Assembly: GCA_015233895.1 (NCBI GenBank)
Contig: JADFXG010000001.1
Coordinates: 186,001-250,000, forward strand
Length of the DNA stretch: 64,000 nt
Reading direction: 5' to 3'
DNA from: Nitrospirota bacterium
Lineage (GTDB): Bacteria > Nitrospirota > Thermodesulfovibrionia > Thermodesulfovibrionales > Magnetobacteriaceae
Below are positions 108 through 38,733 of the stretch, in pieces (position 1 is the stretch's first letter; the number at the start of each line of letters is the position of its first letter). The translations under genes and the position numbers were made by a program. The notes under the pieces are model-generated. The model was not told the DNA's origin. It saw nothing but the letters and a program-made list of their open reading frames with translations, and made no database searches.

Positions 108-2009
108 ATGACAGCAGTAATTTTTATTTGTCTTTCAACACTGCTGGGATTGGCAATTGAGAGATCCTTTGGTTTTTCCAAAAACTTCTGGATAAAGCTC
201 TCATTTGCCATAATCATCGGGAATTTATTTTCAACCTGGGGCGTGTACATTTTATCGGCATTTGTTGGTTTCAATATGATATCAGTGCTGAGTGTTGGCG
301 TTATTCTGTTGTTCCTTGCAGTGCGTTTTATGAGTGTTTCCTCATTTAAAAACCCGGAGTTAACTATGTCACACGTGCAGGCATACCTGTGTATGGTATT
401 TATGCCGTTTTTCATTTTTGGCATGTGGGAAAGAGCTGATGGCAGTGTCATGTTTATAGGAAATTATAACGATATGGCTTATCACATGTCGATGATTTCC
501 TCATTTGTAGAAAAAATGGATTTCCCGCCTGCAAATCTGCAATCAGCCGGAGATGCGTTAAGATACCACTATCTGGTTAACTTTAACTCAGCAATACTAG
601 TGCGTTGCGGAATGACTTTGTTATACTCTGTGATTATTCCTCAGATTCTGTATAGTTTTGCTCTTGTTAACATTCTGTATCATTTCTGTAAAACCCTGCT
701 TAAGACAGAAACTGAGGTTTTCTTTTCCTCAACGTTAATAATTATGGGGCACACAGGGGTTTTTAATATGCTGTTTGCTCTTATTGGGTTTCCTGTCACT
801 CATACCCAGCTTAAACTCTCTTCCTGGATGAGTATCCGAGAGGAGATGCTGAGGCCGTTTTATAATTTTCTGGATGTAATTATAAACCTGTTTCACCCTC
901 AAAGACCGTTTTTGTTTGGGTTTCCTCTGGCACTGATCATACTGTCTGCCGCCAGCAAGGAACTGATTAAAGAAGATGATGCCGATTATGATAATCTCTT
1001 TATGATTTCACTGTTTACAGGGCTTCTGCCTCTTTTTCATATTCATAGTTTCTTTATAGTCTGTCCGATTATCGTGATAATGTTTTTGTATATGTGTAAA
1101 GATAAAAAAAGAGCATTCATATCGTTATCCCCGCTTTTATTAGGGGTGTTTCAGATAGTTTTTTTGTTTTCAGGTTTAAAACCCTCATATTATGCCGGAT
1201 TTGACGTTCATAAACTTGGAGGCGGGCTGAATGAGATAAAACCGCTTAATTCAGAAATTATCGCAAGATTAATATTTTGGATAAGAGCTGGTGGTGCCGT
1301 CCTAACCACAGGGCTTTTATCGGTATTTTTATATTTCAGAAGGTATAAGGAATCCTCAATAGCAATGGGCAGAAAAAATATTTTTCTCATTGTTTCTCTG
1401 GCTGTCACGTTTTCATTTTTTGTATTGATAAACTTTTATCGTTTTAGCCCTGCGTGGGGAGACAGTAATAAGTTTTTCTTTTACTTTGATGTGATACTAT
1501 CACTTTTTTCCGGATTTCAATTGAGCAATATGTTTAAACAGGGAAACATTGTTAAAAAATCTGTGGCGGTGTTAATTATAATGGTTATGGCAGTGCTGCC
1601 TTTTTCAACTGAGTTCCACATTATTTTTACAAAACCAAAGAGTGTGTTGTTCAGTGCAGGGGACAGAGTTACGGCAAGGTGGATAAAAGCCAATACAGCT
1701 AAGGATTCAATTTTTTTAACAAGCAACAGTGTAATACATTTTGTCCCCTCCATGGGGGCTCGTGCAGTTGTTGACGGAGCATATAATTGGGAGGTAGGAT
1801 ATGACAAACCTGGCAAGCAGGACGATGTTGGAAAGATTTATTTAACAGGAGACCCTGAACTTATAAAAAAATACAATATATCGTATATTTTAGTCAGCCC
1901 CTATGAACTTAACTCACTCAGTGTACAGTATGACAAACTTGCACGGTATAGGTTAGTGTATGATGCAAATGTTGATGGGCATAGCTTTAAAATATATGAT
2001 GTCAAATAA
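108..2009 (+). CDS. Polytopic membrane protein, GT-C glycosyltransferase-like
   Basis: A 633-residue protein with about a dozen hydrophobic segments and, after residue 500, a soluble C-terminal part. The loop near residues 110-160 contains a YNDMAYHMS stretch and an RYHYLVNFN stretch. This acidic/His loop after the first helices, followed by many helices, resembles lipid-linked-sugar (GT-C) glycosyltransferases. The C-terminal soluble region holds TARWIKANT and an ILTSNS-like segment typical of such proteins. It acts in the inner membrane, probably in glycan assembly or protein glycosylation; the substrate is unknown. It ends about 200 bases before a convergent TPR membrane protein. No clear Shine-Dalgarno is visible, so translation may be coupled to the gene upstream. 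The family call is by overall architecture, not a unique motif. Confidence 0.6.
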   Translation: MTAVIFICLSTLLGLAIERSFGFSKNFWIKLSFAIIIGNLFSTWGVYILSAFVGFNMISVLSVGVILLFLAVRFMSVSSFKNPELTMSHVQAYLCMVFMPFFIFGMWERADGSVMFIGNYNDMAYHMSMISSFVEKMDFPPANLQSAGDALRYHYLVNFNSAILVRCGMTLLYSVIIPQILYSFALVNILYHFCKTLLKTETEVFFSSTLIIMGHTGVFNMLFALIGFPVTHTQLKLSSWMSIREEMLRPFYNFLDVIINLFHPQRPFLFGFPLALIILSAASKELIKEDDADYDNLFMISLFTGLLPLFHIHSFFIVCPIIVIMFLYMCKDKKRAFISLSPLLLGVFQIVFLFSGLKPSYYAGFDVHKLGGGLNEIKPLNSEIIARLIFWIRAGGAVLTTGLLSVFLYFRRYKESSIAMGRKNIFLIVSLAVTFSFFVLINFYRFSPAWGDSNKFFFYFDVILSLFSGFQLSNMFKQGNIVKKSVAVLIIMVMAVLPFSTEFHIIFTKPKSVLFSAGDRVTARWIKANTAKDSIFLTSNSVIHFVPSMGARAVVDGAYNWEVGYDKPGKQDDVGKIYLTGDPELIKKYNISYILVSPYELNSLSVQYDKLARYRLVYDANVDGHSFKIYDVK

Positions 2010-2210
2010 TAAATCTTTTAATCTACTCATCTGTTTTGCGGGCGGAGCTCGCAATTGAAACTTTTTAAGCGGCGGTACGCCGGTTAAAAAATTCTTTTAA
2101 ATCAAAAACATCCCTCACAAACTTTAAATAAACCCACCAATCGTAGATAAAAACCTGGGGTTAAGGGGGCTGGCCCCCTTACAGGTGGGATTTTAAGGGA
2201 GGGCAGCGCC
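2010..2210. other. Intergenic region between convergent genes, with GC-rich hairpin
   Basis: The gap holds a perfect hairpin at 2163-2180 (AAGGGGG, CTGG loop, CCCCCTT) and a weaker GC-rich inverted repeat near 2070-2085. The hairpin lacks an adjacent T tract on either strand, so it may be a weak bidirectional terminator or a dispersed palindromic element. No gene is seen here. Confidence 0.45.
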
Positions 2211-3866
2211 CTACCTTATTAGATTATTCTTTTCTCTGAGCATTTCATTAACAATATCCAGATTAATCCGGGCAGGCTCCATGCCAGGGTCATACTTAAG
2301 TGCATTTTCAAACGCGGTACGTGCCTCGTCTATTTTTCCAACCCTTAACAGGGCAATCCCAAGACCATTAAAACCAATGGAAATATTGGGGCCTGCTATT
2401 GGTATTGATTTCTTGAAATACCAGATGGCATCTGTCACTTTGTTAAGAGCCAAAAGTTCAAATCCTGCATTTATGTATGGCTTACCAAACCCGGGTTTCA
2501 GGGAAATTGCTTTCTTATAGCTTATAAAAGCATCAACATGGTTTCCTTCTGAGGCTTTTATGTAACCAAGGTTATAGTATGCCATGTAGTTTTTAGTGTT
2601 TACCTCTATGGCGCGATTTGTAAGCGTCAGGCTGTCTCTCCAGTAGGAGGCTTCAACCCTTGCAAAATGAGTCAGAAGGAGTAAAAAAATTGCTCCAAAG
2701 ACTGTTATAGGCAGTTTTAATTTTTGAAACCTCTCCATGAGTTTGAAAACGCAAACCACTGCCAAAACGAAGATCCCTGTGTATGGGATATAAGTGTATC
2801 TGTCGGCCATGGACTGAAGCTCCACCTGAATAAGACCGATTACAGGCAGCAGTGAGATAAAAAACCAACCCCATCCAACTATAAGCCACGGCATAGTTTT
2901 TATCTTTATCAAAGACACGGTAGTTATAGTAATTATTAAAACCGCTGAAAAGATGGCAAGCAAAGCTGGAATGCTTTCAGGCATAGGGTAAAAATTAGAC
3001 AGTCCGGCTGGATACACGGCAAGATACAGGTACTTAGTGTATGACACCAGAGCGTTACCAGCTCTTAGAGAAAGCGGAAAGCGTTGAAGGGGCATCAGGT
3101 GCCCGCCACTTTTTTGGACATAAACCGTTATGACACAGGAGACGGCAGAGAGGACAAAAAATGGAATTTTTTCTAGTATAATTGCAGCAGCTTTTTTTGT
3201 AGCCCTCGCATCCGGAACATTTGAGAATCTGTTAAGAGGCCAAAAATCCAGGAGCAAAAGCAAAACAGGAAGCGTAACTGCCATAGGTTTTGACATAAGT
3301 GAAAGCACAAAAAGAGCCAGTGTCAGCATATACCGGAGGATGTTTTCTTTACGCACATAGGAGACATAACTAAGCATTGTGAGAAAAAACCAGAAAGCGC
3401 TCAGCACATCTTTTCTTTCCGATACCCACGCTACCGACTCAACGTGCATAGGGTGTATTGCAAAAAGTGCTCCGGCTATTGCTCCTTGCAGCATATTCCC
3501 ATGTAAAAGTTTAGCAAACAGGATAAACACCAGCAGAGAGTTTAGCGTGTGTATTATAACGCTTGTGATATGATGTCCCATTGGGCGCATCCCGTAGAGT
3601 TGAAAATCCGTAAGGTGTGACAACCACGTAAGAGGGAACCAGTTGCCGTCGTTATCAGTGGTAAATGCCCACTTGACGCTTTCTTTTGTAAACCCCGTTT
3701 GAACAAAAGGATTGGCGGTTATGTAGCGGTTGTCGTCGTAAATAAGAAACTGGAAATTCCTTGTATCCTGATACACATAGAGGGTTAACACTATAATCAA
3801 AACTGAGTAAATGACCCCATGTATCCACAGAGACCCGGGGCTATAAGAAAAACTGTTTTCAGCCAT
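2211..3866 (-). CDS. TMTC-like membrane protein with C-terminal TPR repeats
   Basis: This 551-residue protein has about 10 membrane helices (residues 15-410) followed by TPR repeats (about 420-545; for example NYMAYYNLGYIKASEGN and GKPYINAGFELL). The N-terminal loop with YDDNRYITANP, the GHHITSVIIH segment and the HPMHVESVAWVSERKDVLS motif are typical of the bacterial TPR membrane family related to TMTC/O-mannosyltransferases (GT-C fold). The first acidic loop (YDD) would hold the catalytic Asp. The likely role is inner-membrane glycosyl transfer from a lipid-linked sugar. It is convergent with the preceding gene and divergent from the secreted protein that follows. Confidence 0.75.
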   Translation of the reverse strand: MAENSFSYSPGSLWIHGVIYSVLIIVLTLYVYQDTRNFQFLIYDDNRYITANPFVQTGFTKESVKWAFTTDNDGNWFPLTWLSHLTDFQLYGMRPMGHHITSVIIHTLNSLLVFILFAKLLHGNMLQGAIAGALFAIHPMHVESVAWVSERKDVLSAFWFFLTMLSYVSYVRKENILRYMLTLALFVLSLMSKPMAVTLPVLLLLLDFWPLNRFSNVPDARATKKAAAIILEKIPFFVLSAVSCVITVYVQKSGGHLMPLQRFPLSLRAGNALVSYTKYLYLAVYPAGLSNFYPMPESIPALLAIFSAVLIITITTVSLIKIKTMPWLIVGWGWFFISLLPVIGLIQVELQSMADRYTYIPYTGIFVLAVVCVFKLMERFQKLKLPITVFGAIFLLLLTHFARVEASYWRDSLTLTNRAIEVNTKNYMAYYNLGYIKASEGNHVDAFISYKKAISLKPGFGKPYINAGFELLALNKVTDAIWYFKKSIPIAGPNISIGFNGLGIALLRVGKIDEARTAFENALKYDPGMEPARINLDIVNEMLREKNNLIR

Positions 3867-33006: not shown

Positions 33007-33786
33007 TTAAGTGTGTTCTCCCCTTAATCTTTTTTCAGCGATCCTCACATATTGCGGTTCTTTCTCGATTCCAATCCAGTTCCGGCCATATTTTTGAGCT
33101 ACAACAGCAGTTGTTCCACTTCCCAAAAATGGGTCCAAGACAATATCATTCTCATTTGAGCTTGCTAAAATGATCCTTTTTAACATCTCTTCTGGTTTTT
33201 GCGTTGGATGCAAGGCTTTTCCGTCTTCGCCTCTTGCTCGTTCTTTGCCCTGAACCAACGGCATTTCCCATAAATCACGCATTTGCTTCTCTTCCCCATT
33301 TTTTTGTTTTTCCGGATTAATTGCCTTTATTTTTTCATAATTAAAAGTCCACCCGGAGCCTTTAACTGCCCAAACAACAAATTCAGTTGAATGGGTAAAG
33401 ACACGTTTTGTCATATTTGGCATTGCGTTTGTCTTATACCATGTGATGATATTGTTTATCTTAAAATCGAGTTGTTTTAAAACAATTATTAATTCTGCTA
33501 TATTGTGGTAACTACACGCAATATAAATTGACCCCGTTTCTTTCAAGACGCTATGACAGCCAGCAATCCATTTTCTGGTAAACTGCAAATAGTCGGGTGC
33601 TGTCATCTTGTCCCAGTGTTCATTGACCATGTACCAATCTCCTCCGGTTTTATTCCCTTTCCATTTCAAAGCGTTACCGGAAAGGTTATAAGGCGGATCG
33701 GCAAAAATAAGATCAATTGAGTTTTCATCAATTTCATGATTTAAACATTTTATACAATCGTCATTGTAAATTATATTTTTTTTCAT
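33007..33786 (-). CDS. Beta-class adenine-specific DNA methyltransferase of the R-M system
   Basis: 259 residues from ATG 33786. DPPYNLSG motif IV comes first (30-37) and the AdoMet-binding DPFLGSGTT (218-226) last, so it is a beta-class amino-methyltransferase; the DPPY motif points to N6-adenine, though N4-cytosine cannot be excluded. It follows the restriction gene with only 2 bases between, and is last in the three-gene operon. A type IIS nuclease needs each strand of its asymmetric site protected, which explains two different methylases. Confidence 0.9.
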   Translation of the reverse strand: MKKNIIYNDDCIKCLNHEIDENSIDLIFADPPYNLSGNALKWKGNKTGGDWYMVNEHWDKMTAPDYLQFTRKWIAGCHSVLKETGSIYIACSYHNIAELIIVLKQLDFKINNIITWYKTNAMPNMTKRVFTHSTEFVVWAVKGSGWTFNYEKIKAINPEKQKNGEEKQMRDLWEMPLVQGKERARGEDGKALHPTQKPEEMLKRIILASSNENDIVLDPFLGSGTTAVVAQKYGRNWIGIEKEPQYVRIAEKRLRGEHT

Positions 33787-33788
33787 AA

Positions 33789-35606
33789 CTAAAAAGTAAG
33801 GCTTTCCTGCCAGGACGTAATACTCTTTTGTACACTTTTTACCCACTCATTTGAATCTGACAAGACCTCCGACTTTTCTAAAATCTTATCATAGAGACGA
33901 AAAAGGTCATTATGTTTTAAAAGCTTTCCGTGTTTTTTTATCTCAACAAGTATTTTTAAAAGCTCAATGAAATTATTAATTGATAATGGAACAATTTTTT
34001 GTTTACGCCCCTCATATTCATATTTAATTGCAGTCCAAAAAGTATTTATTGTGTCTCTGTGCAGTTTTGGAGCAACGAATAAGCAATAAGTACTTTTATC
34101 AATATGTTTGTTCTCGAAATCTCTTAAATGACGCATTACCGGCTGTCCTTCATTGTACCACTGATTACGTCCTGTAAGCATTGTAACCTCACAAATAGCA
34201 TTGTAGTTTTCATAAAAACATTCAATGTCCGGAATATTTGCAGGGGCAGTAAAAGTTGGCTCATTATCATCGCCCACGGGATAATTCGGTTTGATTTTCA
34301 ATGCATCATTTAGCGCATTAAGTCCAAGCGATAGAAGTTTTTCTAATAAAATTGGCCTATCATCAGCCTTAAAGATATTTTCTAAATCGTTAATGCATAT
34401 TTTTATTTGCTCAATTTCTTGTGTTTTTTGTTGGTTTTGTTTATCTTGTAGTTCCCTTCGGTAGTTTCGTAAATCACTAATAAATCTTTTTAAACCATCC
34501 TCCTCTAAATCCTTATAATTCAAAAACGACTTCGGTGTTATTCCTGTTTCCTTTTCGTACAACCTTATGTCGTCTATTAGCGTTACAGCAATTTCAATAA
34601 GTTTTTCAATAGTTTCCCATGGCAGTTTTGGTTTGGAAATGTTGGAAATATACTCTATATAATCCTTTTTTGAGATAAAAACTTTTGATTGTGCATTATC
34701 AAAATTAAGCAGGTTCTTAATTTCTATTGACCGTCGTGGCTCTAAATCAATATAAACACCACCTCCTCGGATGTAAATATAACGTGTCAAACGAAAATAT
34801 CTAATTGCATTATCTCCATAATCTTTTAGGTTTTTTAAGAGTTTTTGAATTTTTATAGTATCTGTTGTCTGTAAAAATTCTTCTGCAAAAACATCTCTAT
34901 ATTTACTAAAAATAGTTTTTTGTTCCTGCCTTGTTTTACCTTTTAGTTTTTTTCTCAACGAAATAATTTTTTCGGAATACGAGTCTATGTCTTTATAATT
35001 AACAAGCGTTGGACAAAATAAAGAAAATTCCTCCTTACTAATTCCCTTTTCTTTTTCTGCTAAAATCCCTGATTTGTTATTTACTTTTTGAATAAGGTGA
35101 AGGATACCGATAAACGGTTTTATGTCGTATCCGTCTTTAAGGTTATAATCATCGCTATCAGGATTTGGTATTTGCCACTTTATAAAACTTCTAAAAAAAA
35201 TCTCTCCAAGATCAAAGTCATCATTTAAAAATAGTTTGCCTAAACTTGTAATAAAAATTTTTTTATCTTTTAGTACAACAAATCCAAATTTCTTAAGCGG
35301 GTTTATAGACTGCCTGCCTCTCATTGCAGGATCTTCATAGTTTTTAGCAATAAAAATCTTTTCAGCCTCTTCAAAAGAAATTTTTCTGGTTGGATCATCA
35401 ATCAAATCAATTTGTACTTGCGATAATCCATTATAAAATTGATTATTTCCAAAGCCGTATATTCTTTCTTTAATCAAAAGAATCTGGTATTTTCTTTGGT
35501 TTTCTAAATCCCATTTGCAATTTCCAAGTTGATTTAAAACGATCAAGAAATCTCTTAAGCGCTCAGGATTTCTCAGAGTTGTTGTTATTGACCATGTTTT
35601 TTTCAT
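33789..35606 (-). CDS. AlwI/PleI-family type II restriction endonuclease
   Basis: 605 residues. The N-terminal STTLRNPERLRDFL-like start (TTTLRNPERL), ILLIKERIYGFG and the NGLSQVQIDLIDDP region match the AlwI family, which includes the type IIS enzymes AlwI (GGATC) and PleI/MlyI and the nicking relative BstNBI (GAGTC). The candidate catalytic region is near PDIE (about 459-462) and ICEVT (about 472-476), fitting a PD-(D/E)xK variant. Cleavage would be a few bases outside an asymmetric 5-base site. It is placed between two methylases with 10- and 2-base gaps. Site and whether it cuts one or both strands cannot be read from sequence. Confidence 0.8.
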   Translation of the reverse strand: MKKTWSITTTLRNPERLRDFLIVLNQLGNCKWDLENQRKYQILLIKERIYGFGNNQFYNGLSQVQIDLIDDPTRKISFEEAEKIFIAKNYEDPAMRGRQSINPLKKFGFVVLKDKKIFITSLGKLFLNDDFDLGEIFFRSFIKWQIPNPDSDDYNLKDGYDIKPFIGILHLIQKVNNKSGILAEKEKGISKEEFSLFCPTLVNYKDIDSYSEKIISLRKKLKGKTRQEQKTIFSKYRDVFAEEFLQTTDTIKIQKLLKNLKDYGDNAIRYFRLTRYIYIRGGGVYIDLEPRRSIEIKNLLNFDNAQSKVFISKKDYIEYISNISKPKLPWETIEKLIEIAVTLIDDIRLYEKETGITPKSFLNYKDLEEDGLKRFISDLRNYRRELQDKQNQQKTQEIEQIKICINDLENIFKADDRPILLEKLLSLGLNALNDALKIKPNYPVGDDNEPTFTAPANIPDIECFYENYNAICEVTMLTGRNQWYNEGQPVMRHLRDFENKHIDKSTYCLFVAPKLHRDTINTFWTAIKYEYEGRKQKIVPLSINNFIELLKILVEIKKHGKLLKHNDLFRLYDKILEKSEVLSDSNEWVKSVQKSITSWQESLTF

Positions 35607-35616
35607 ATTAATATTA

Positions 35617-37419
35617 TTAGTTTACTTTACAATAAAAAATACGCTCTGCGTTACCATCGCCATTGCTCTTTCCAGTACTGAAGGCCTTGTAATCTCTTTC
35701 AAAAATTTCAACCTCCCCTTTATTTAACAATATTTGCAAAATATCATTATCACTCATTCTGGCATTTGAACGTCCATCTTTAGAATCGCCTGTATTATTA
35801 TAAGAAAATAGAATATGTTTACAATTTGCATTTTTAATTAAGTCATCAAATGCTTGAATGGCATTTTTTAGACAATATGAACTTTTGATGTGTGAACGAT
35901 CCATTTTTTTAGCTACACCCTCAACTGTTGGTTTTTTCCATTGCGCTACATTTTCTAATAAATGATACGCATCAGAATATTGACGAGAATTGTATGGCGG
36001 ATCAATATAAAGAACATCGCAAGTAATTTGTCTAATCAAAATATTTGCATTCTCTTTATAAACCTCATTATTTCCATTATTTAGATAATCAATATCGGGG
36101 ACTAATAACTTTATGGGTTGCAACATATCCAAATCTTTACGAAAAGCGTCATAATGTCCAACTGTATTTGCAACTTTATCTATAGCGTAAATTAAGGAAC
36201 AGATAAGAATATTTTTTACTCCCTCTATTTTCTCTATTTTCTCTATCTCTTCGCGAATAGCCCCAATTTTTCTGGCATTTTCCAAAGAAAAATAATTATT
36301 TCCAAAGTGCTCTGAAAAATAATTGTCTTGTTCAACTTGTAAGTTGTTAAGATAATGTATCTTTTCTGCAATATCTCTGACATTTATTCTTGTGCCAAGA
36401 AATGCTCTTAGACACACGTAATTGCTATATAGAAAATCATTAGAAATAACTCTTATTTCTGGTTTATTAAATCTTTCGCCAACAACACCGGTGCCAGCAA
36501 AAATATCGCAAAATGACTTAATACTACTGCATTTTTCTATAACAATATCTTCAATAAAACCGAGTAATTTATATTTATTGCCTAAGTATCTTCTGTTGTG
36601 TAATTGGAAAGTATCTGCCTTAGCTTTAAGAAAGCGAAGATACGGTCTGTTAATTTTTTTTATGTTTGCATTATAAAGAGGCTTATCTATTTCCAATAGG
36701 TCAAACAAGGTAGTTTGAATCCCATCTGAAACATAATCAAGGCCGTTGTCTGAATCTTTTAAGTTTAAGTAAAAACTATAATGCTTGTTTTCAGAAATAA
36801 TAATAAAATCAATTACAGGGACACCCATTATTTCTCCTGCTTGCACAATCCTTGTAACAATTCGCTGATCTTTTTCACTTGGTATGGAATTACCGGATGG
36901 GTGGTTATGGACTAAAATTATACTTGACGCATTTAATTCAGTTGCTGGATAAAAAATTTCTCTCGGATGGATTAGTGTTTTATCAAGTAAACCCACACTG
37001 ACAATATCTTTTTTTATTAAAACATTTCTTGCATTGAGATAGAGGCAAATCAAATATTCCTTTTTTTTATCTCCTAAATCATAAGTCAAAGCATAAGCAT
37101 CATTTGAGTTTCTGATAACAACGTCTCTGTCTTTATTCTCTTCATAGAATCTTTTCACCAAAGAAATTGCTGAAATAATTTGTAAAGCTTTAGCTTGCCC
37201 AATTCCTGAAATCTCTAATAAGTCATCAACAGTAATAGTTAGAAAATTCTTGCTAAATCTCCTAATAATATGTTCTGAAAGTTGCCTGACATTTTTACCT
37301 TTTATTCCACTGCCCAATATAATTGCTAAAAGATCGCTTTTAGAAAGTGCATCTGCACCTTTTTGTATAAATAGCTCTCTTGGGCGGTCAACCTTTGGAA
37401 TATCTTTAATTTTCTGCAT
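35617..37419 (-). CDS. Fusion of RadC (JAMM) domain with D12-class adenine methyltransferase
   Basis: 600 residues in one uninterrupted frame. The N-terminal about 222 residues are a complete RadC: helix-hairpin-helix region with ISGIGQAKALQ (70-80), then the JAMM/MPN+ motif HNHPSGNSIPSEKD (His171, His173, Asp184). A linker of about 50 residues leads to a D12-class methyltransferase: RRYLGNKYKLLGFI (277-290), AdoMet motif DIFAGTGVVG (305-314) and DPPYNSRQY (473-481), order I then IV as in alpha-class N6-adenine enzymes such as FokI-type methylases. First gene of the R-M operon, 10 bases before the nuclease. Confidence 0.88.
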   Translation of the reverse strand: MQKIKDIPKVDRPRELFIQKGADALSKSDLLAIILGSGIKGKNVRQLSEHIIRRFSKNFLTITVDDLLEISGIGQAKALQIISAISLVKRFYEENKDRDVVIRNSNDAYALTYDLGDKKKEYLICLYLNARNVLIKKDIVSVGLLDKTLIHPREIFYPATELNASSIILVHNHPSGNSIPSEKDQRIVTRIVQAGEIMGVPVIDFIIISENKHYSFYLNLKDSDNGLDYVSDGIQTTLFDLLEIDKPLYNANIKKINRPYLRFLKAKADTFQLHNRRYLGNKYKLLGFIEDIVIEKCSSIKSFCDIFAGTGVVGERFNKPEIRVISNDFLYSNYVCLRAFLGTRINVRDIAEKIHYLNNLQVEQDNYFSEHFGNNYFSLENARKIGAIREEIEKIEKIEGVKNILICSLIYAIDKVANTVGHYDAFRKDLDMLQPIKLLVPDIDYLNNGNNEVYKENANILIRQITCDVLYIDPPYNSRQYSDAYHLLENVAQWKKPTVEGVAKKMDRSHIKSSYCLKNAIQAFDDLIKNANCKHILFSYNNTGDSKDGRSNARMSDNDILQILLNKGEVEIFERDYKAFSTGKSNGDGNAERIFYCKVN

Positions 37420-37942: not shown

Positions 37943-38224
37943 ATGGCACAGACAAAAGGGAAAGAAGCCGTATCAATCAACATACGAGCCAAAACGCAAC
38001 AACGCGATCTTATAGACCAAGCTGCCGAACGGCTTGGCCGTAGCCGCTCAGATTTTATGCTTAGCGTTGCGTGCCGTGAAGCGGAGGACGTGCTGCTTGA
38101 CCAGGCATTTTTCATGGTCAACGCTGGCACTTTCGCCGCGTTTCAGGCAATGCTTGATGAGCCACTACCGCCGACCGACAGGCTACGCCGATTACTAAAG
38201 ACGAAAGCCCCTTGGGACAAATGA
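37943..38224 (+). CDS. TacA-like antitoxin (DUF1778, ribbon-helix-helix)
   Basis: 93 residues. The N-terminal beta strand SINIRAKTQQRDLIDQAAE and the GRSRSDFML helix form an RHH DNA-binding domain as in DUF1778/TacA antitoxins, and the C-terminal tail (PPTDRLRRLLKTKAPWDK) is the toxin-binding segment. It has a strong ribosome site (AAGGAGG, 6 bases before ATG). Its stop overlaps the toxin start (ATGA). Base composition is richer in GC than the neighbouring R-M genes. Confidence 0.92.
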   Translation: MAQTKGKEAVSINIRAKTQQRDLIDQAAERLGRSRSDFMLSVACREAEDVLLDQAFFMVNAGTFAAFQAMLDEPLPPTDRLRRLLKTKAPWDK

Positions 38225-38733
38225 CGACGTTTGTTCTAACACCCCCATTACCAATTTCAGCCGCTCATGTCCTTGATGGTTTTGAATGCGGAGAGCCGTC
38301 ACTGGATGAATGGCTGAAAAAGCGGGCACTCAAAAACCATGCTTCAGGAGCCTCACGTTGCTTTGTTGTTTGCCACGGTGCGGATGTAATCGGTTATTAT
38401 AGCTTGTCAGCAGGAGCAATCAGGCATGAATCAGTAACTAAGGCTATGCGGCACAATATGCCCGATCCATTGCCGGTGCTACTGCTTGGCCGGTTGGCGA
38501 TTGACCAGCGTTATCATAATCAAGGACTTGGCCGCGCACTGTTACGCGATGCCATGATTAGAGCCGTCAACGTTTCCAGCGATGCGGGTATTTTTGCGCT
38601 CATGGTTCATGCGTTATCAGAACAAGCCAAACGTTTCTATCTATCACGCGGTTTTGTAGAGTCCCCGTTGCAACCTACGACCCTTATGATGACTTTGGCA
38701 ACAGTGCGCTCTATTTTGGCCGAATCGGATTGA
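38221..38733 (+). CDS. TacT-like GNAT acetyltransferase toxin
   Basis: 170 residues from ATG 38221. GNAT fold with the acetyl-CoA loop RYHNQGLGRALL and a C-terminal YLSRGFVESP (with the Tyr expected as the general acid). TacT/AtaT-type toxins acetylate aminoacyl-tRNA and stop translation; the DUF1778-GNAT pairing supports this. The frame opens at TTG 38212 but ATG 38221, which overlaps the antitoxin stop, is preferred. Confidence 0.92.
   Translation: MTTFVLTPPLPISAAHVLDGFECGEPSLDEWLKKRALKNHASGASRCFVVCHGADVIGYYSLSAGAIRHESVTKAMRHNMPDPLPVLLLGRLAIDQRYHNQGLGRALLRDAMIRAVNVSSDAGIFALMVHALSEQAKRFYLSRGFVESPLQPTTLMMTLATVRSILAESD

Follow-up and report, generated by a model that had tools for sequence, protein, structure and literature searches.

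A RadC-methyltransferase fusion with a conserved clamp-like linker motif as an accessory module of Type II restriction-modification systems

RadC is a new accessory module of Type II restriction-modification (R-M) systems. In the window, by which we mean the whole 64,000-nucleotide stretch of Nitrospirota DNA analyzed here, a complete RadC is joined in frame to an adenine methyltransferase, and comparison with related loci shows RadC and a conserved linker motif to be, on the pattern of their relationships, one portable unit that has been exchanged between unrelated methylase classes; the fusion itself is genuine, ancient and widely distributed. RadC occurs very widely in bacteria, and a 2025 account still lists its function as unknown (PMC11981726). 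The earlier note on this DNA knew of no described role for such a fusion, and our literature search, which likewise found no description of one, is consistent with that claim; most subscription journals and REBASE lay outside the search, and an unnoticed listing is possible. A RadC clade tied to four kinds of R-M methylase offers a defined setting for testing RadC, with one protein, one activity that can be measured through methylation and tolerance of the endonuclease, and clear point mutants. The features of the operon are as follows.

35617..37419, minus strand: RadC-linker-D12 methyltransferase fusion, 600 aa, gene 1 of the operon, with Pfam and NCBIfam matches
36772..37419, minus strand: RadC module, residues 1-216 (UPF0758_N/HhH and JAB), with JAMM residues E121, H171, H173, S181 and D184 from alignment to 2QLC
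36673..36735, minus strand: conserved linker block, residues 229-249 (YVSDGIQTTLFDLLEIDKPLY), with core QTTLF at 235-239, resembling a sliding-clamp-binding motif
35620..36609, minus strand: D12-class N6-adenine methyltransferase domain, residues 271-600, with motif I at 305-314 and DPPY at 473-476
33789..35606, minus strand: AlwI/BspD6I-family Type IIS restriction or nicking endonuclease, 605 aa (PF09491, E 4.4e-82)
33007..33786, minus strand: beta-class CcrM-like N6 methyltransferase (PF01555, E 2.2e-65; CcrM 6pbd, E 2.6e-58)

The fusion is a single uninterrupted frame of 600 aa on the minus strand (35617-37419), with an ATG start and no internal stops. The earlier note had read it, without giving a strand, as a complete RadC joined to a complete D12 methylase, and this is borne out by Pfam matches to UPF0758_N (residues 4-78, E 2.8e-22), RadC JAB (102-216, 7.9e-35) and MethyltransfD12 (278-534, 7.6e-35), all far over cut-off. 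Both RadC domains exceed their curated cut-offs, the E, HxH, S and D residues of the JAMM site are present, and the protein passes the NCBIfam RadC equivalog NF000642 (203.6 bits, cut-off 180), as expected of a member of the RadC / UPF0758 family. The D12-class assignment rests on PF02086, the AdoMet motif and DPPY, and the domain scores 376 bits against the PADLOC MTase_II model PDLC03373. The residues named from the sequence beforehand (H171, H173, D184, DIFAGTGVVG at 305-314 and DPPY at 473-476) are all correct. In the AlphaFold2 model the folded domains match the RadC structure 2QLC and Dam (also the DpnM fold).

That the fusion heads an R-M operon, as had been claimed, is likewise confirmed, the minus-strand order being fusion, AlwI-type endonuclease and N6_N4 methyltransferase. 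The endonuclease matches the PADLOC "Type II nicking endonuclease" over its full length (429 bits), and its nearest solved structure is N.BspD6I (2ewf, E 3.5e-37). The longest frame of the beta-class methyltransferase runs from 33007 to 33846, but its start is probably Met21 of that frame, which directly follows the endonuclease stop; orthologues are mostly about 256-261 aa long. An AlwI-family endonuclease and two cognate methyltransferases in one operon identify the system as Type II R-M of the AlwI/BspD6I group. Because BspD6I recognizes GAGTC and CcrM recognizes GANTC, the predicted recognition site, from nearest relatives only, is GAGTC/GACTC. Just upstream of the operon, on the opposite strand, positions 37943-38733 of the window hold a TacA-like antitoxin and a GNAT acetyltransferase, likely a toxin-antitoxin module.

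A second genome of the same genus (G326/L184) has the intact operon beside comM, with 95% DNA identity over 7.9 kb. This copy and the full-length RadC-D12 proteins, 36 with the window's own counted, rule out assembly error as the source of the fusion and exclude the frameshift or misassembly that the earlier note had allowed for. In two further genomes of the genus (G079 and G096) comM has other neighbors, and the operon is therefore most likely an acquired island. Relatives of the window's D12 domain at E <= 1e-20 occur in 4 of 396 sampled genomes of the phylum, the source genome counted, and that in G302 is also a RadC fusion. Our search found no fused RadC-methyltransferase copies on viruses or phages, nor on plasmids.

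To collect the family we took the RadC parts of three fused proteins as queries and scanned bacteria and archaea, each species represented by a single genome, which returned 80 loci; since the collection was made with RadC-based patterns, the frequency of the family in it is not unbiased. Among these loci, the window and G160, 57 RadC proteins run on into a methyltransferase, some of them cut short by a cassette, a frameshift or the end of a contig. By record title they span about 17 bacterial and archaeal phyla (Nitrospirota, Atribacterota, Patescibacteria, Margulisbacteria, Thermodesulfobacteriota, Omnitrophota, Auribacterota, Campylobacterota, Ignavibacteriota, Neomarinimicrobiota, Bacillota, Pseudomonadota, Cloacimonadota and Planctomycetota, with archaeal bins of Altiarchaeales, Thermoplasmatota and Woesearchaeota), and single host assignments, archaeal above all, may be wrong because nearly all of the records are metagenome bins. 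Four kinds of methylase, confirmed by Pfam, serve as partners, the D12 kind in two operon types.

D12 i, the window's type: RadC-D12, AlwI endonuclease and CcrM-like enzyme
D12 ii: RadC-D12, AlwI endonuclease and a second D12
C5: RadC-C5, NgoFVII_C-type or HpaII endonuclease, and Vsr
SPPY beta (Cloacimonadota): RadC-methyltransferase and an endonuclease related to that of the C5 type
DLPY beta: RadC-methyltransferase in Roizmanbacteria

RadC is N-terminal, the fusion comes first wherever other R-M genes lie alongside, and a matching endonuclease mostly adjoins. The check for fused RadC-D12 relatives and their neighbors proposed in the earlier note thus turned up the 36 full-length proteins, with an AlwI endonuclease beside the D12 types. 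In one gammaproteobacterial bin, a 423-aa gene with no Pfam match (L097:9776-11047) separates the RadC-D12 fusion from the AlwI endonuclease.

Homologues of the D12 domain without RadC are found in R-M systems of Gram-positive plasmids, the window's domain being 46% identical to such plasmid AlwI-system methylases, and they have either an HTH-like N-terminus or nothing in RadC's place. Since the D12 enzyme works without RadC in those systems, it follows that RadC is not essential to AlwI-type R-M systems and that its role is accessory. The HTH-like sequence was seen by eye on the same D12 in Lactococcus, Enterococcus, Staphylococcus and Macrococcoides plasmids and in L036, and this, with the place of the fusion as the operon's first gene, could mean that RadC fills an N-terminal accessory slot as an operon autoregulator or as an aid to DNA binding by the methylase. 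We regard this as distinctly unlikely, as a regulator has no need of an invariant JAMM site and RadC is retained with unrelated methylases of different specificity.

On a tree of RadC sequences, all fused proteins fall into a single clade (support 99/96), within which D12i, D12ii and C5 members are interleaved, such that well-supported branches force at least 9, 9 and 2 label changes, respectively; the class labels of truncated copies on this tree rest on weaker evidence. Between the proteins of L070 and L125, RadC is 96% identical and the methyltransferase 43%, the identity dropping just past the linker motif, and L097 (D12) and L101 (C5) share 83% of RadC. From this break, the RadC shared across classes and the interleaved tree, RadC and the motif therefore travel as a unit, and from the first pair, with RadC nearly unchanged and methylases unrelated in detail, RadC appears to be kept for a function that tolerates any methylase. 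Residues E121, H171, H173 and D184 are present in all 57 fused proteins and S181 in 56 of 57 (Thr once). In eight close pairs, dN/dS for the JAB domain is 0.02-0.09 in seven and 0.22 in one; for the HhH part it is 0.04-0.06 in six pairs and higher in two. At the sequence level, these figures show a JAMM site preserved under purifying selection. It might be argued from the sharp breakpoints downstream of RadC, and from cassettes that swap the payload while RadC stays open, that RadC is mainly a conserved 5' anchor whose shared sequence lets R-M payloads recombine, its biochemical role being minor, but we give this little credence, given that mere homology would call for neither dN/dS so far under 1, nor catalytic residues that never vary, nor a motif kept in frame.

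The cassettes consist of a BRO-N protein (PADLOC candidate PDC-S13, 430 bits) with a 305-aa PLD-like nuclease, or of the PLD gene alone, and replace or interrupt the methylase or endonuclease genes of RadC-methyltransferase operons at L056:8936-10996, L094:6884-8847 and L063 (about 1595-3600), and also at L062, L064, L073, L087 and L106. In the pairs L055/L056, L086/L094 and L060/L063 the left edge of the cassette falls just past D12 motif I, with RadC intact.

Within the phylum, homologues of R-M genes lie within 5 kb of RadC at 2 of 18 lower-scoring and 10 of 29 higher-scoring loci; several of the latter were picked after R-M genes had been seen, and with few queries both counts are lower bounds. 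A general linkage of RadC to R-M is ruled out, only 2 of the 18 lower-scoring loci having R-M genes at that distance. The functional link between RadC and R-M suggested in the earlier note is supported for the fused RadCs (a single clade with conserved JAMM residues and low dN/dS, joined to methylases of four kinds in about 17 phyla) and fails for lone RadC generally. The finding that note would have counted against itself, separate genes with radC not linked to R-M, was in part made: D12 without RadC exists on Gram-positive plasmids, and lone RadC genes mostly have no R-M genes nearby, but the fused clade stays tied to R-M.

Other arrangements were also seen. Lone RadC lies beside Type III mod (and res) at L040-L044, L107, L109, L111, L112 and L130, in several phyla and one viral contig, and in Patescibacteria an extra gene, with an NYN domain in L107, sits between RadC and the Type III genes. 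In G260 a Type I hsd operon ends with a lone RadC gene, and the second RadC of the source genome is just downstream of a gene that by eye is HsdR-like; the loci listed for both are L045:6566-13235 and L049:4160-8098. At L039:981-2441, RadC is fused in frame to a C-terminal piece resembling, by eye, the PD-(D/E)XK nuclease end of Type III Res.

Between the two domains, all 57 fused proteins have the motif Y-[VIL]-[AS]-[DE]-G-x-Q-x-[ST]-L-F-[DA]-L-[LF]-E with minor variation. The Q column is conserved in 56 of 57 sequences and the [LIF] and [FL] columns in every one, while other linker columns mostly vary; among the D12 members the linker averages 48% pairwise identity and the motif block 64%, with JAB at 71% and the methyltransferase at 61%. 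The loose pattern Qxx[LI][FL] has a background of 4.3% in 55-aa windows of neighboring proteins. Lone RadC proteins lack the motif, and the sole apparently standalone carrier, L062, is a truncated remnant of a fused gene. AlphaFold2 gives residues 230-263, between the two folded domains, a pLDDT below 50, and the linker is predicted to be disordered. This conservation shows that the motif has a function.

The consensus for clamp binding is QL(S/D)LF (PMC9690074), and in the clamp motifs of transposases the positions that stay constant are Q1, 4 and 5, the latter two hydrophobic or aromatic (PMC4549789). The linker motif has Q at 1, a hydrophobic residue at 4 and F or L at 5, within a region of predicted disorder; Leu at position 2 is mostly replaced by G, H, T or A (position 236), and the match to the consensus is only partial for that reason, so that we call the motif clamp-like and do not place the fusion among the clamp-binding proteins. 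Transposase peptides with the motif bind beta of several bacteria, including one from Nitrospirota, as well as archaeal PCNA (PMC4549789), which fits the spread of the motif across domains. We infer that its partner is the sliding clamp. D12 homologues without RadC also lack the motif, with the exception of an HTH-D12-D12 methylase from an Enterococcus plasmid (L033:6463-8565) that has QLELF at the corresponding place in the linker; a 61%-identical relative does not have it. We considered whether HTH-D12 methylases with an independent clamp motif might lend support, but with one protein only this is weak. No conserved clamp motif was found at the ends of the operon partners (5 of 35 AlwI endonucleases, 2 of 14 beta methyltransferases and none of 20 second D12 enzymes).

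Our best explanation, which we hold tentatively and at somewhat less than an even chance, is that RadC and the clamp-like motif form a portable module targeting an R-M methylase to replicating or repaired DNA, both clamp binding and RadC chemistry being predictions. One of the two strand-specific methyltransferases of a Type IIS system of the AlwI/BspD6I group bears an N-terminal RadC, at whose end lies the highly conserved Qx[ST]LF motif of the flexible linker, and this motif would dock on the replication clamp, DnaN beta or, in archaea, PCNA. Docking may bring methylase and RadC to newly replicated or repaired DNA, host sites would be re-methylated before the endonuclease cuts, and the HhH/JAMM part could add DNA binding or processing at such sites. 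Several observations sit less easily with this: the conserved block exceeds the pentapeptide (Y229, G233, Y249), as it might if it bound some other partner; one strand's enzyme alone would be tethered, since RadC is missing from the second methyltransferase of every operon; and position 2 is rarely Leu, with the motif missing from RadC-less D12 homologues save the Enterococcus protein. A broader proposal, about which we are more doubtful, is that a whole R-M class couples protection of host DNA to the replication fork, the module recruiting exchangeable methylases to new DNA, which would give one branch of RadC a real role. If the motif does bind the clamp, there would be R-M systems with a replication-coupled maintenance methylase like eukaryotic DNMT1, of which we found no description in the literature searched; nor did the search yield any clamp motif in connection with a methyltransferase and DnaN.

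Alternatively, in line with the earlier note, which had RadC act on methylated, nicked or cleaved DNA, RadC may be a DNA-processing or repair enzyme for breaks and nicks made by its own R-M endonuclease, the motif being secondary or meant for another partner. The HhH and intact JAMM site, an endonuclease family that includes nickases, the repair enzyme Vsr accompanying C5 members and the suggestion of Iyer et al. 2017 (PMC5512222) that RadC JAB processes nucleic acids are all in keeping with this. It nonetheless seems unlikely, as RadC has no known activity and its mutants have normal damage sensitivity (cited in PMC11981726), related R-M systems manage without RadC, and both the motif and the fusion to the methylase rather than the endonuclease are left unexplained. 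The clamp-like motif, which the earlier note did not mention, speaks for targeting no less than for repair. A metallo-peptidase that controls release of the methylase, by cutting within the linker or by taking off a protein tag, is suggested by the JAMM fold and residues and by the conserved block adjoining the domain, and metallopeptidases are the nearest known relatives or folds by DALI in PMC11981726. We find this scarcely credible: the RadC clade is said to be without the ubiquitin-tail groove (PMC5512222), Gly233 is not invariant (52/57), and the operons showed no genes for tags or conjugation. The literature decisively supports none of the rivals, nor the clamp-targeting reading.

Clamp-docked RadC-methyltransferases would be a prokaryotic analogue of the recruitment of DNMT1 by PCNA, in that DNMT1, with its PCNA-binding box (PMC9690074), likewise combines a methylase with a motif of the clamp-binding type; the two have no homology, and clamp binding by RadC-methyltransferases is predicted. 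RadC-like DinG and the RadC of polyvalent proteins also present RadC as a module of larger DNA-conflict proteins, but with a helicase or ArdC as partner instead of a methyltransferase, and no R-M operon is described in the available parts of those accounts (PMC11981726, PMC5512222). The BspD6I / N.BstNBI / AlwI Type IIS systems (PF09491) are alike in the family of their endonuclease, in using two distinct methyltransferases for an asymmetric site and in having a related D12, whereas the fusion D12 has RadC in place of an HTH or nothing and one operon type uses a CcrM-like beta enzyme. The fused RadCs resemble RadC / UPF0758 (2QLC) in their complete HhH and JAB, JAMM residues and fold, but they form a separate clade, always with the C-terminal Q-motif and nearly always fused to a methyltransferase.
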